NCBI RefSeq assembly: GCF_028331445.1
Contig: NZ_JAQMHX010000001.1
Coordinates: 806,001-870,000 of the forward strand
DNA from: Candidatus Phyllobacterium onerii
Lineage (GTDB): Bacteria; Pseudomonadota; Alphaproteobacteria; Rhizobiales; Rhizobiaceae
DNA: 64,000 nucleotides
Direction: 5' to 3'
The first letter of the stretch is position 1. Each line of letters opens with the position of its first letter. Under the pieces are notes generated by a model, which was not told the DNA's origin, did not search any database, and saw nothing but the letters and a program-made list of their open reading frames with translations. Positions 18,474 through 22,247 of the stretch are shown here, piece by piece. Both the position numbers and the translations under genes were made by a program.

Positions 18474-18502
18474 TTGACGATTTGCCCGCACTCGATCATA
18501 AA
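18474..18502 (+). promoter_or_regulatory. sigma-70-type promoter of the cysS-cimA leader
   Basis: TTGACG (18474-18479), a 17-nt spacer, then CATAAA (18497-18502). The predicted start point, 7-8 bases after the -10 box, is the A of the ATG at 18510, so the transcript would start on or next to the start codon of the leader peptide (leaderless). Confidence 0.7.
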
Positions 18503-18509
18503 TGCCCGC

Positions 18510-18563
18510 ATGAAAACGTCGCCCGTAACGATTATTATTACCTGTCGGATTATTATCAGCTAG
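18510..18563 (+). CDS. isoleucine-rich leader peptide of the cysS-cimA operon
   Basis: A 17-codon frame, MKTSPVTIIITCRIIIS, ending in TAG, 123 bp before cysS. Six of 17 codons are Ile in two runs of three (five ATT, one ATC), separated by Thr-Cys-Arg. Such a run is the mark of an attenuator leader peptide. It has no ribosome site because the predicted transcript begins at its ATG. The operon ends in cimA, an isoleucine-pathway enzyme, which fits the codon content. A single Cys codon could add a response to cysteinyl-tRNA, relevant to cysS. It is too short for ordinary gene finding. Confidence 0.75.
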   Translation: MKTSPVTIIITCRIIIS

Positions 18564-18654
18564 CGCTCGCTGGCCCGGCCGTTTTCGTCTCAAAAATCCT
18601 GATAAAGATGCAAAACGCACCGGTCGCCAGACCAGCGCGATGATATGCGTTTTG
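18559..18654 (+). promoter_or_regulatory. attenuator with mutually exclusive hairpins
   Basis: Hand pairing gives: hairpin 1:2, GCTAGC (18559-18564) with GCTGGC (18569-18574), covering the leader stop codon; pairing 2:3, CTGGCCCGG (18570-18578) with CCGGTCGCCAG (18620-18630), nine pairs with a 2-nt bulge; hairpin 3:4, CAAAACGCA (18611-18619) with TGCGTTTTG (18646-18654) enclosing GGTC/GACC. Segment 2 cannot be in both 1:2 and 2:3, and 2:3 excludes 3:4. The 3:4 hairpin is followed by or includes only four T, so it is a weak terminator on sight. Energies were not computed. Confidence 0.55.
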
Positions 18655-18685
18655 ACGATGAACCCCGAATTTTGAGATCCAGGAC

Positions 18686-20134
18686 ATGCCGCAGGTACTG
18701 AAGCTGTACAACACGCTCACGCGCACGAAGGAGACCTTTGTGCCGATCGATCCGAATAATGTGCGCATGTATGTCTGCGGCCCGACCGTCTATGACTATG
18801 CGCACATCGGTAATGCCCGGCCGGTTATCGTCTTCGACGTGTTGTTTCGGTTGCTTCGTCATATCTATGGCGAAAGCCATGTGAACTACGTTCGCAACAT
18901 CACCGACGTCGACGACAAGATCAACGCTCGCGCCGCCCGCGACTATCCGGACCTGCCTTTGAATGAAGCGATCGGCAAGGTCACCGAAGCAACGAACGAG
19001 CAATTCCAGGCGGATGTGGCAGCGCTCGGCAATCTGCAGCCTTCGTCTCAACCACGCGCGACCGAATATATTGCTGAAATGGCGGCGATGATCGATCGCC
19101 TCGTCGAGCGTGGCGTCGCCTATGTGGCCGACAGTCACGTCTTGTTTTCCCCATCGGCGATGAATGCCGCCAAAGGCCCCCGCTACGGATTGCTCTCCCG
19201 CCGATCATCTGACGACATGATTGCCGGTGCGCGCGTCGACGTTGCCTCTTACAAACGAGACGAGATGGATTTCGTTCTGTGGAAGCCCTCCAAGGAAGGG
19301 GAGCCGGGCTGGCCGTCGCCTGCGGGTATCGATGGTCTCGGTCGCCCGGGCTGGCATATCGAGTGCTCGGCCATGTCGATGGCGAAGCTGCTTGAGCCAT
19401 TTGGTGGCGGGTTGCAATGCGACGATCCGATGAAGAACATTTTCGACATCCACGCCGGTGGCATCGATCTGGTGTTCCCTCACCATGAAAACGAGCTCGC
19501 CCAGTCCTGCTGCGCCTTTGGCACCGACCGGATGGCCAATGTCTGGATGCACAACGGCTTCCTGCAGGTTGAGGGCCAGAAAATGGCCAAAAGCACCGGT
19601 AATTTCGTGACGATCCATGAATTGCTGGCGACTGACACCTTCGGTGGCCGTAAATGGCCGGGGGAAGTGCTGCGCCTTGGCATGCTCATGACCAACTATC
19701 GCGAGCCGATCGATTTCAGTGTCAGAAAGCTGGAGGAGGCAGAGAACATCCTCGCCAAAGCTCGCGAATATGTGGGCGATGCCGGCGTTGGTGTCGTTCC
19801 GGATGAGGCTGTCGATATCCTGTCGGACGACCTCGCAACGCCAGGCCTTGTCAATTGGCTGGCGTCGATCAGGAAGTCGCGCGTCCTCGATCCTGAGGCG
19901 TATCGTGCTGTGTTCGCGCTGCTAGGCATTGATCTGAGCGTAGAAAGCGTCTCACGCGAGCTCGAGAATGAAATCGAAGCCAAGATCCGCAATCGCCTCT
20001 CTTTGCTTGCAGCCAAGAGTTTCCCTGAGGCCGACCGCATCCGCGATGAGTTGCTGGAAAAGGGCGTTCAATTGAAGGACGGAAAAGATCCCGCTACCGG
20101 CGAACGTGTCACGACCTGGGAGATAAAGCGATGA
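18686..20134 (+). CDS. cysS: cysteinyl-tRNA synthetase
   Basis: Class I aminoacyl-tRNA synthetase charging tRNA-Cys. The 482-aa protein has [26 protein letters not shown], with a zinc-ligand Cys and the HIGH-type motif, [30 protein letters not shown] and FPHHENE, and the KMSKS-type loop [15 protein letters not shown] precedes the ATG. It is the first full gene after the isoleucine-rich leader; its stop overlaps the start of the GFA gene by 4 bp, so it belongs to one transcript with cimA. Confidence 0.97.
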
Positions 20135-20637
20135 GTCTGGATAACAAGCCCGTCTACACTGGCGGTTGCCAATGCGGTGCGATCCGCTTTCGCGTGGAGG
20201 GTGCACTCGGTGACGCATCGATCTGTCATTGCCGCATGTGCCAAAAGGCCTTCGGCAACTTTTTCGCGCCCCTGACATCAGTGCGCGGCACGGATTTTGA
20301 GTGGACACGGGGCGAGCCCAAGCGGTTTCAATCGTCTAATCACGTCAAGCGGGGTTTTTGCGCGAACTGCGGAACCCCGTTGACCTATGAAGCACCGGAC
20401 GGTGTGGCACTTGCTATCGGTGCATTCGATGAACCTGAAGAATTGGCGCCCACCCTTCAGTGGGGCGTCGAAGACAAACTGCCTTACGTTGATGATCTGT
20501 CAAAACTCCCCGGATACACATCTGACAGCGACGCGGAATCGGTGGAATTCCTCAAAACGATGATATCCTATCAGCACCCCGACCATGACACGGAACAGTG
20601 GCCGCTATTGGGGTCGCGAGGGGAGGCGGGCGAGTGA
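20131..20637 (+). CDS. GFA-family (glutathione-dependent formaldehyde-activating-like) protein
   Basis: A 168-aa zinc-fold protein of the GFA/DUF636 family. Cysteine pattern: [24 protein letters not shown] and [12 protein letters not shown], the zinc and CENP-V-like ligands. Although named after formaldehyde activation, most members have no proven activity. It is squeezed between cysS and cimA with overlaps at both ends (ATGA and GTGA), so it is co-translated; no pathway link to either neighbour is evident. Confidence 0.88.
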
Positions 20638-22247
20638 CAAAAGAACGGATCTATCTCTTCGACACGACATTGCGCGATGGCCAACAGACGCCTGGTATCG
20701 ACTTTTCAGTTGAGGACAAGAAAGTCATTGCATCCATGCTGGATGAGTTTGGCTTCGACTATGTCGAGGGCGGCTATCCGGGAGCGAACCCGACCGACAC
20801 CGCCTTCTTCGCCGAAAAGCGTACGAAGCATGCAAAATTCGCAGCTTTCGGCATGACCAAACGCGCCGGCGTCTCGGCCTCCAATGATCCCGGACTTGCA
20901 GCACTCATCCGTTCGCCAGCTGACACCATATGCTTTGTCGCCAAAAGCTGGGACTATCATGTTCGCGTAGCGCTCGGCTGCACGAATGAAGAGAACCTTG
21001 AGTCCATCGATGCTTCCGTTCGTACTGCAGTTGAGGCAGGCAAGGAAGCCATCGTCGATTGCGAGCACTTCTTCGATGGCTATAAGGCTAACCCGGAATA
21101 CGCGCTCGCCTGCGCCAAGACCGCCTACAGTGCAGGAGCCCGCTGGGTCGTGCTGTGCGATACCAACGGCGGCACGCAGCCCGCGGAAGTCACCGAAATC
21201 GTCCGTGCCGTGACGAAACACATCCCCGGCAACCATCTCGGCATCCACGCCCATAATGATACGGAGCAGGCAGTCGCCAACTCGCTTGCTGCGATCGATG
21301 CGGGTGTCCGCCATGTGCAAGGCACACTCAACGGTATCGGTGAGCGTTGCGGTAACGCCAATCTGGTGACGATCATCCCGACACTGATGCTGAAACCGAG
21401 TTGGGCGAACCGTTTCGAAACCGGCATCGGCCTCGAGAAACTCCAAGGGCTTTCCCGCCTGTCGCGCAGTTTCGACGAATTGCTCAACCGCGCACCCAAT
21501 GCGCAGGGTGCGTTCGTCGGCGCGTCGGCATTTGCAACCAAGGCCGGCATTCATGCGTCAGCCCTGATCAAGGAACCGGCAACTTATGAACATGTACCAC
21601 CGGAAACGGTCGGCAATCGTCGCAAGGTCATGGTTTCGGACCAAGGGGGCAAATCGAATTTCATCAATGAACTTGAACGTCGCGGCATTCCGGTGGCCAA
21701 GTCGGATCCGAGGCTCGATACGCTGATCGCGCTGGTCAAGGAACATGAGTCCGAGGGCTACGCCTATGAAGGCGCTGATGCCAGTTTTGAGCTCTTGGCG
21801 CGACAGACGCTCGGCACTGTCCCCGAGTTCTTCAAAGTCGACTCCTTCCGCTGCATGGTCGAGCGGCGCTTCGATGCAAATGGCAACATCAAGACCGTCT
21901 CGGAGGCCGTTGTCCGTATGGAGGTCGATGGTGAGACGCGGATGTCCGTCGCTGAGGGGCATGGACCGGTCAACGCACTCGATCTGGCGTTGCGCAAGGA
22001 CATGGGCCGATATCAGGACGAGATCGCTGATCTGGTGCTAGCGGATTTCAAGGTGCGGATATTGAACGGCGGCACCGAGGCCATCACCCGCGTGCTCGTC
22101 GAGTCGACCGATTCCAGCAATGTGCGCTGGTGGACGGTCGGTGTTTCGGACAATATCATCGACGCGTCCTTCCAGGCGCTAATGGATTCCATCGTCTATA
22201 AATTGATGAAAAATCGGGATTTGGCGGGAAAAATAGCGGCCGAATAG
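20634..22247 (+). CDS. cimA: (R)-citramalate synthase
   Basis: Condenses pyruvate and acetyl-CoA to (R)-citramalate, giving 2-oxobutyrate for isoleucine without threonine. The 537-aa protein belongs to the CimA-type HMGL/LeuA family: N-terminal barrel YLFDTTLRDGQQTPGIDFSV, metal-binding HAHNDTEQAVANSLAAIDAGVRHVQGTLNGIGERCGNANL, and a C-terminal LeuA-like regulatory domain from about residue 410. The length and text fit the ~530-aa CimA group (TIGR00977). The GTG start at 20634 follows GAGGGGAGGCG and overlaps the GFA stop. Presence of the leader peptide upstream of cysS supports the isoleucine role. Confidence 0.9.
   Translation: MTKERIYLFDTTLRDGQQTPGIDFSVEDKKVIASMLDEFGFDYVEGGYPGANPTDTAFFAEKRTKHAKFAAFGMTKRAGVSASNDPGLAALIRSPADTICFVAKSWDYHVRVALGCTNEENLESIDASVRTAVEAGKEAIVDCEHFFDGYKANPEYALACAKTAYSAGARWVVLCDTNGGTQPAEVTEIVRAVTKHIPGNHLGIHAHNDTEQAVANSLAAIDAGVRHVQGTLNGIGERCGNANLVTIIPTLMLKPSWANRFETGIGLEKLQGLSRLSRSFDELLNRAPNAQGAFVGASAFATKAGIHASALIKEPATYEHVPPETVGNRRKVMVSDQGGKSNFINELERRGIPVAKSDPRLDTLIALVKEHESEGYAYEGADASFELLARQTLGTVPEFFKVDSFRCMVERRFDANGNIKTVSEAVVRMEVDGETRMSVAEGHGPVNALDLALRKDMGRYQDEIADLVLADFKVRILNGGTEAITRVLVESTDSSNVRWWTVGVSDNIIDASFQALMDSIVYKLMKNRDLAGKIAAE

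Follow-up and report, generated by a model that had tools for sequence, protein, structure and literature searches.

Cys and Ile leader peptides and the leader before cysS-gfa-cimA

The closest described system is the uORFC-8-2 motif, a predicted cysteine attenuator before cysS with 145 examples, all in Rhodobacterales, which combines tandem Cys codons with an intrinsic terminator and for which its authors proposed ribosome-mediated attenuation (PMC8632094, RNA Biol 2021). The leader analysed here resembles uORFC-8-2 in being a short upstream ORF before cysS in Alphaproteobacteria with conserved Cys codons, and its position relative to the gene is the same. However, uORFC-8-2 is a Cys-only leader with a terminator, whereas here Ile is nearly fixed at position -3 from the stop, cimA is part of the operon, the leader is spread across the Rhizobiales and a canonical terminator is absent; instead of two tandem Cys codons the window peptide has one, and no 3' U run of an intrinsic terminator follows. 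Two leaders from outside the order (L132 and L137) contain a Cys-Cys pair like that of uORFC-8-2, and our guess is that both belong to Rhodobacterales. The words 'isoleucine', 'cimA', 'citramalate', 'Rhizobiales' and 'Hyphomicrobiales' occur 0 times in the main text of the uORFC-8-2 paper (PMC8632094), and no second paper using the term was found in the mostly openly accessible literature searched. Beyond uORFC-8-2, neither a Cys/Ile leader nor a Rhizobiales cysS leader was among the literature matches listed, which comprised titles and starts of abstracts and few subscription papers. An earlier note on this DNA knew of no described attenuator for these genes, which holds in the literature searched for cysS-cimA itself but not for cysS in Rhodobacterales, where uORFC-8-2, a candidate Cys attenuator, precedes it (PMC8632094).

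In Sinorhizobium meliloti, the AUG of the leader ORF of trpL/peTrpL is the 5' end of the transcript, as reported in a study of the small proteome whose main text contains neither 'cysS' nor 'cysteinyl' (PMC10117765). Our leader shares with trpL/peTrpL a probable AUG at the 5' end and the location before an amino-acid gene, but trpL/peTrpL has Trp codons, precedes trpE and is a transcription attenuator. Among multi-amino-acid attenuators, the thr (Thr/Ile) and ilvGMEDA (Ile/Val/Leu) leaders of E. coli are well known. An alphaproteobacterial ilvB leader peptide was described by Vitreschak et al. in 2004 and is reportedly terminator-based; that study is cited in PMC1273637. The ilvB leader is a branched-chain leader peptide from the same bacterial class but stands before another operon, and the ilvBN leader of Caulobacter contains Ile and Val codons (PMC4117421). 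The ilvBN, thr and ilvGMEDA leaders are comparable to ours in that one leader reads more than one tRNA, but their amino acids share a pathway and they terminate transcription, whereas here a Cys synthetase and an Ile synthase are combined.

The window, a stretch of 64,000 nucleotides from the 6.0 Mb genome of Candidatus Phyllobacterium onerii, contains the features listed in Table 1. The earlier note had named a cysS-gfa-cimA operon ending in cimA, and this gene order was borne out by the matches to TIGR00435, PF04828 and TIGR00977. The genes overlap by four bases at both the cysS/GFA and the GFA/cimA junction, the latter through the cimA GTG and the stop codon of the GFA gene (GTGA, 20634-20637), and because of these overlaps cysS, the GFA gene and cimA are probably translationally coupled. 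A longer cimA ORF starts at 20598, and 20634 is the better start. Among the 20 genomes of the genus, UUGA upstream of cysS was invariant and the next G was kept in at least 90%. A gene for a LysE-type amino-acid exporter (PF01810, 17552-18166) lies upstream of the operon on the same strand. In six Phyllobacterium relatives (L006, L012, L016, L017, L018, and L019), cysS is separated from the GFA gene by approximately 560-600 additional nucleotides with long inverted repeats of the CCCCCCTCTGTCCTG..ATCTCCCCC type, which we take to resemble intergenic mosaic repeat elements.

Table 1. Features of the leader region and the cysS operon in the window
Feature	Position	Strand	Evidence or remark
Promoter	18474..18502	+	-35 TTGACG 18474-18479, 17-nt spacer, -10 CATAAA 18497-18502
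Leader ORF, peptide MKTSPVTIIITCRIIIS	18510..18563	+	ATG 18510, 17 sense codons, TAG 18561-18563
RNA segment 1 AUGAAAACG, leader start	18510..18518	+	Helix A with segment 2 (18580-18588)
5' arm of stop-codon hairpin D, GCUAGC including the UAG stop	18559..18564	+	Covariation, stem counts
RNA segment 2 (hub) GCUGGCCCGGCCGUUUUCGUCUC	18569..18591	+	18569-18574 is the 3' arm of hairpin D
GUCUCAAAA, helix C with UUUUGAGAU beside the cysS ribosome-binding site	18587..18595	+	Predicted, minimum-energy fold
RNA segment 3 GAUGCAAAACGCACCGGUCGCCAG	18607..18630	+	Helix B with segment 2; duplex -25.4 kcal/mol in the window
Shine-Dalgarno-like AGGA (18681-18684) of cysS, with UUUUGAGAU (18670-18678)	18670..18685	+	Sequence
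cysS, cysteinyl-tRNA synthetase	18686..20134	+	TIGR00435, 388.9 bits against a cut-off of 340
GFA-domain gene (gfa)	20131..20637	+	PF04828; start overlaps the cysS stop (ATGA 20131-20134)
cimA, citramalate synthase	20634..22247	+	TIGR00977, 605 bits against a cut-off of 450

Both the 17-codon frame with six Ile codons in two triplets and the TTGACG-N17-CATAAA promoter, on which the earlier note was built, are present in the sequence. The Ile codons of MKTSPVTIIITCRIIIS are codons 8-10 and 14-16, the Cys codon is codon 12, and 7 nt separate the -10 box from the ATG. The leader stop and the cysS ATG are 122 nt apart, in place of the 123 bp noted before. Counting nested starts, the two strands of the window contain 703 ATG frames of 8-30 codons, of which this is the sole one with at least six Ile in at most 20 codons and the sole one with two III runs, and 20 dinucleotide shuffles of the window produced 0 frames of either kind. 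Our consensus promoter scan, the rule of which demands T at position 6 of the -10 box, did not report TTGACG-CATAAA. No Rfam family reached the gathering score in the window or in 10 relatives, the only sub-threshold match having 11.6 bits (E 3.6). From the position of the promoter, a transcript +1 on or adjoining the leader ATG is plausible. We consider it rather probable that the leader belongs to a ribosome-mediated attenuator that reads the charging of tRNA-Ile as well as tRNA-Cys, with control probably exerted on translation.

Occurrence of the leader among relatives

We searched for cysS in 59 relatives (57 matched), 249 genomes of the order (246 matched) and 144 genomes of the class (144 matched), the own genome being counted each time, and read the upstream regions of 146 cysS loci (L001-L146). 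A leader had to contain at least three Ile plus Cys codons, two of them within the last seven codons and an Ile among these, which was the case at 119 loci. Since the rule counts Ile and Cys codons, the Ile/Cys richness among the genera is partly built in; the rule requires neither Ile at -3 nor the presence of Cys. Doubtful cases were left out by hand (L025, L055, L057, L060, L118, L120, L124, L131, and L144), leaving 110 leaders; L120 may nevertheless be a true leader. Keeping one leader per genus (dropping L002-L020, L054, L069, L073-L075, L077, L078, L080, and L089) gave a set of 82 genera, in 61 of which segments 2 and 3 could be recognised. For L007, the start of cysS was assigned manually.

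All 20 Phyllobacterium genomes sampled (L001-L020, among them that of the window) have the leader frame, each time with one Cys and with 3 to 7 Ile, and across the order it was recognised in 74 of the 86 genera examined (85 genera counted first, L122 adding one without leader). Outside the order, 8 of 28 loci had a leader (L119, L121, L125, L126, L132, L133, L137, and L139), all eight with cimA downstream; cimA was seen in the fetched stretch of 21 of the 28 loci, 13 of which had no recognised leader. Leader length is approximately 13-26 codons, and example peptides of relatives are MKTVLCLCRSIIR, MKTSFGICSICIIG, MKTFGATAICICRIIIS, and MNTTICIICCIITC. The earlier note had suggested looking for the frame in Brucella, Phyllobacterium, Mesorhizobium and Agrobacterium, and a short ATG frame with Ile was found in all four; Agrobacterium vitis, Ensifer adhaerens and a Sinorhizobium are among the relatives carrying the leader.

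A codon-blind DNA pattern (ATGAAAAC-gap-CTAG-gap-GCTGG...CGTTTTCG), which is free of the Ile/Cys rule yet fixes the first codons, the TAG and segment 2, was scanned against one genome per species (84,980 species) and matched at least 119 loci. All 119 listed stretches are open in frame from the ATG to the TAG of the pattern, and in 117 of them cysS begins 80-300 nt downstream of the leader ATG, the remaining two (L157 and L194) ending before. Downstream, cimA was visible at 58 of the 119 listed loci, many of which end too early to tell. The genera among the listed matches include Brucella, Falsochrobactrum, Phyllobacterium, Mesorhizobium, Rhizobium, Ensifer/Sinorhizobium, Agrobacterium, Shinella and Hoeflea, and a single bin carries the label Brevundimonas (L191). 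The leader region of L015 recurs unchanged in L148. Within the genome of the window, this locus is the one place where the core pattern is present.

The promoter position was shared as well. In 76 of the 82 genera, a TTGAC or TTGAT starts 34-39 nt upstream of the leader ATG, as compared to 0-2 in other 6-nt bins, and in 68 of these 76 genera the base preceding the ATG is C; in the codon-blind set, the TTGAY-to-ATG distance is 35-37 nt at 118 of the 119 listed loci. A Shine-Dalgarno-like sequence precedes the leader ATG in 7 of the 82 genera versus cysS in 71. Because the -35 box sits 35-37 nt before the ATG, the leader ORF is probably leaderless, with its AUG at or next to the 5' end of the transcript.

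RNA pairings and the level of control

Covariation was assessed without an alignment, by comparing the pairing energy within each genome to that of segments swapped among genomes. Helix A, between the leader start and segment 2, had an energy of -17.4 with its own partner versus -14.8 when swapped (z -8.3, 0/5000 permutations), and helix B, between segments 2 and 3, gave a z of -8.4 (0/5000 permutations). These permutations leave shared ancestry in, but the control pairs of the same ancestry (leader/segment 3, leader/ribosome-binding site, and segment 2/ribosome-binding site) showed no gain, their effect being of opposite sign with positive z. When 743 window pairs were mapped blindly in 61 genera, helices D, A and B likewise headed the list, the stop-codon region with segment 2 at the top (z -7.5, typically GCUAGC with GCUGGC) and helix A at z -7.1. 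A stem of at least 6 bp holding the stop codon, as in hairpin D, was present in 65 of 82 genera versus 37 of 410 shuffles. The leader stop is TAG in 62 of the 82 genera, perhaps because the stop-codon stem pairs GCUAGC with GCUGGC, so that many TAG stops would be due to this arm of hairpin D. A role of slow termination at the leader TAG is possible. Helix C, between the stretch after segment 2 and the ribosome-binding site, covaried weakly (z -1.9 in the swap test, -3.5 in the blind map) and was dropped as a general feature on account of the former value.

Alternative pairing of segment 2 with the leader start, the stop-codon region or segment 3 is thus well supported by covariation. Mutually exclusive covarying pairings and a short upstream ORF with codons for the regulated amino acids are general marks of ribosome-mediated attenuators; helices A, B and D are such pairings, and the leader appears to be such an ORF. 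From comparative sequence evidence, we regard the combination of a conserved Cys/Ile leader peptide and a covarying RNA switch upstream of cysS-cimA as real.

In the mechanism that we propose, the leader start, the stop-codon region, segment 3 and the cysS start region are rival partners of segment 2, which cannot pair with all of them simultaneously. With ample Ile and Cys, translation would proceed to the leader stop, where the ribosome would either cover segment 2 or allow helices A and D to re-form, and segment 3 or segment 2 would mask the cysS ribosome-binding site. Under shortage of one or the other amino acid, the ribosome would stall on the last codons, its footprint covering the stop-codon arm of hairpin D and leaving segment 2 free, so that helix B could form, the cysS ribosome-binding site would open and cysS together with the coupled gfa-cimA would be made. 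Control would probably be exerted at translation, gfa and cimA following through the overlapping stop and start codons. The footprint of a stalled ribosome extends approximately 12 nt beyond the first nucleotide of the A-site codon, and with the A site on an Ile at -3 or -2 it would cover the stop-codon arm and spare segment 2, which matches where Ile is fixed. The assignment of the alternative pairings to ON and OFF states is made by analogy with precedent.

Masking of the cysS ribosome-binding site is modestly supported by our predictions, among which there are also contrary results. In compact leaders, a pairing between segment 3 and the ribosome-binding site can be found by eye (CCCCGGCC...GGCC..GGGG in L097 and L105), and in 58 compact leaders the local pairing of segment 3 with the last 14 nt upstream of cysS shows covariation (z -3.5, 1/5000 permutations), a signal that fades as the stretch is widened (z -3.5, -2.7, and -1.25 at 14, 18, and 22 nt) and that is absent in the 24 long leaders, the type of the window (z +1.3). 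In 61 genera, moving the A site from the stop to two codons before it lowered the predicted opening cost of the ribosome-binding site by 0.72 kcal/mol on average (30 up and 8 down by more than 0.5), whereas 12 shuffled sets gave -0.01 +/- 0.19. For an A site five codons before the stop, these genera showed no gain (mean 0.20 versus 0.03 +/- 0.20; 19 up, 18 down), and a stall at the first late Ile/Cys codon helped by more than 1 kcal/mol in 42 of 110 leaders and hurt in 22. A rule by which stalling opens the cysS ribosome-binding site in every genome was therefore rejected as mixed over the 110 leaders; the predicted effect is modest on average and confined to the stop-adjacent stall. For the RNA of the window itself, the opening cost did not drop (9.8 with the A site two codons before the stop versus 9.5 at the stop); among the stalls, only those placed earlier in the leader reduced it (to 5.2 and 4.8, and to 8.6 at five codons before the stop), and it was lowest without a ribosome (4.3), which is a misfit with an OFF state lacking translation.

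A transcriptional version of the same leader, in which RNA polymerase would terminate or pause at hairpin D and the pyrimidine-rich tract of segment 2 behind it, and would pass when a ribosome stalling at the final Ile/Cys codons occupies the 5' arm of D, is the strongest of the alternatives, though we judge it unlikely. It would account for the strong conservation of hairpin D, and its Rhodobacterales relative uORFC-8-2 was described with a terminal U run (PMC8632094). When up to 8 nt were allowed between hairpin and U tract, 51 of 82 genera matched with 4 U, versus 14.5 +/- 2.6 after shuffling, and 29 of 82 with 5 U, versus 6.6 +/- 2.8. This excess vanished at the usual spacing of 0-2 nt with hairpin D included (15/82 versus 11.4 +/- 3.0; 3/82 versus 4.2 +/- 1.6), CCGGCC intervenes between D and GUUUUC in the window, and only 1 of the 20 Phyllobacterium genomes (L019) has a terminator-like site after the stop. 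Among the 82 genera, terminator-like sites after the leader stop were not in excess with 4 U (15 versus 14.5 +/- 2.4 shuffled) and numbered 8 with 5 U (versus 4.8 +/- 3.0 shuffled). A canonical intrinsic terminator after the leader was rejected, since neither of two scans gave an excess over shuffles at 0-2 nt spacing. Because of the 51 genera that match with up to 8 nt, there may be a weak or unusual terminator with a longer spacer at hairpin D.

Amino acids read by the leader and the link to cimA

Among the 82 genera, eight of them outside the order, the leader contains Cys in 81 and at least three Ile in 78. Counted back from the stop, Ile occupies position -3 in 80 of 82 and -4 in 64 of 82, and codon -8 is Ile in 50 and Cys in 21. 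The codon-blind set gave the same picture, as all 51 distinct peptides from the 119 listed loci have Cys, at least two Ile, and Ile at -3. The ratio of six Ile to one Cys in the window is a tilt of its own lineage.

The leader is linked to cimA. This count started from 60 loci, less 3 that were truncated; among the 57 with enough sequence, a Cys/Ile leader was present in 50 of 53 with cimA downstream and in 0 of 4 without (Fisher p 9e-5, shared ancestry left in). The three exceptions are L036 and L044, which have cimA and no leader, and L091. At the homologous place, L091 (G177) has the leader MTKGPHTALAGFGSCTSCG, with Cys and without Ile, and cimA approximately 5.4 kb downstream; it is a natural case that may separate the Cys and Ile inputs. 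In the order, cimA was absent at E 1e-100 from 26 of 249 genomes, six of the 26 being inferred from missing table rows. Of these, 24 were examined and 22 had cysS, three with a leader (L290, L294, and L296). L294 and L296 come from drafts of 240 and 770 contigs, in which cimA may be missing, whereas L290 (G248) has no detectable cimA and yet a leader with Cys and Ile codons, MNGSLAICGICREIKS. No such leader was recognised in the remaining two cimA-less genomes, G184 (L060) and G108 (L108). The linkage count favours the attenuator reading both amino acids, whereas L036, L044, L091, L290 and the cimA loci outside the order with no recognised leader speak against it.

An isoleucine-only attenuator, as proposed in the earlier note, would make the Cys codons incidental. 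The window peptide with its six Ile and single Cys, the standing of Ile at -3 as the most conserved residue and the lack of the leader from most cimA-less genomes all favour it, but Cys is kept almost universally, also in the codon-blind peptides, and the leader of L091 has Cys and no Ile, making this explanation improbable. The conserved, probably leaderless, Ile-rich leader of the stalling type before cysS-cimA thus stands from the earlier reading, whereas sensing of Ile alone does not, nor does the placing of a tRNA-Cys synthetase simply under isoleucine control. Since the Cys codons are nearly as widely kept as Ile, cysS would have its own amino acid read too. Conversely, a cysteine-only attenuator of cysS as in Rhodobacterales, with Ile incidental and cimA riding along, would agree with the near-universal Cys, with the Ile-free leader of L091 and with the description of uORFC-8-2 from Cys codons alone (PMC8632094). 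We regard it as more improbable still, as Ile is more frequent than Cys and nearly fixed at -3, and the leader is rare where cimA is missing. That the ORF encodes a functional small protein, for which a trans role of the leader peptide peTrpL in S. meliloti offers a precedent (PMC7298713), or is a chance frame, for which its being open is the whole evidence, has a negligible probability, since length and N-terminal sequence vary while the Ile/Cys positions and RNA pairings are kept, and chance is excluded by the window shuffles and the codon-blind set.

Returning to the attenuator that reads both amino acids, we would extend it tentatively, with the balance close to even, to an old, order-wide, leaderless leader with two inputs (Cys OR Ile) that acts on translation rather than termination, in an operon uniting a tRNA synthetase for one amino acid with the committed synthase for a different one. 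Cells would in this way link their use of sulfur amino acids to isoleucine formation from pyruvate. If this is true, most Rhizobiales read two unrelated amino acids with one leader, and a single leader sets a tRNA synthetase as well as an anabolic gene. A motif so far described only for Rhodobacterales and only for cysteine would then be broader than known, there would be a natural case of translational control by an amino-acid leader peptide, and it would become testable why cysS and cimA stay together. Cysteine inhibits threonine deaminase, the usual entry to isoleucine, and citramalate synthase bypasses that entry, which outlines a physiological link between Cys and Ile.

An Ile leader directly before cimA was also sought, and none was present in ten cimA loci (L266-L275). 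At three of these (L267, L268, and L269, in G126, G239, and G154), a stretch like the C-terminal end of CysS lies just before cimA, found by a tblastn match for L268 and by eye for L267 and L269. In the same three genomes, cysS is located elsewhere without a leader peptide, and this arrangement together with the CysS-like stretch suggests a duplication or replacement of cysS.
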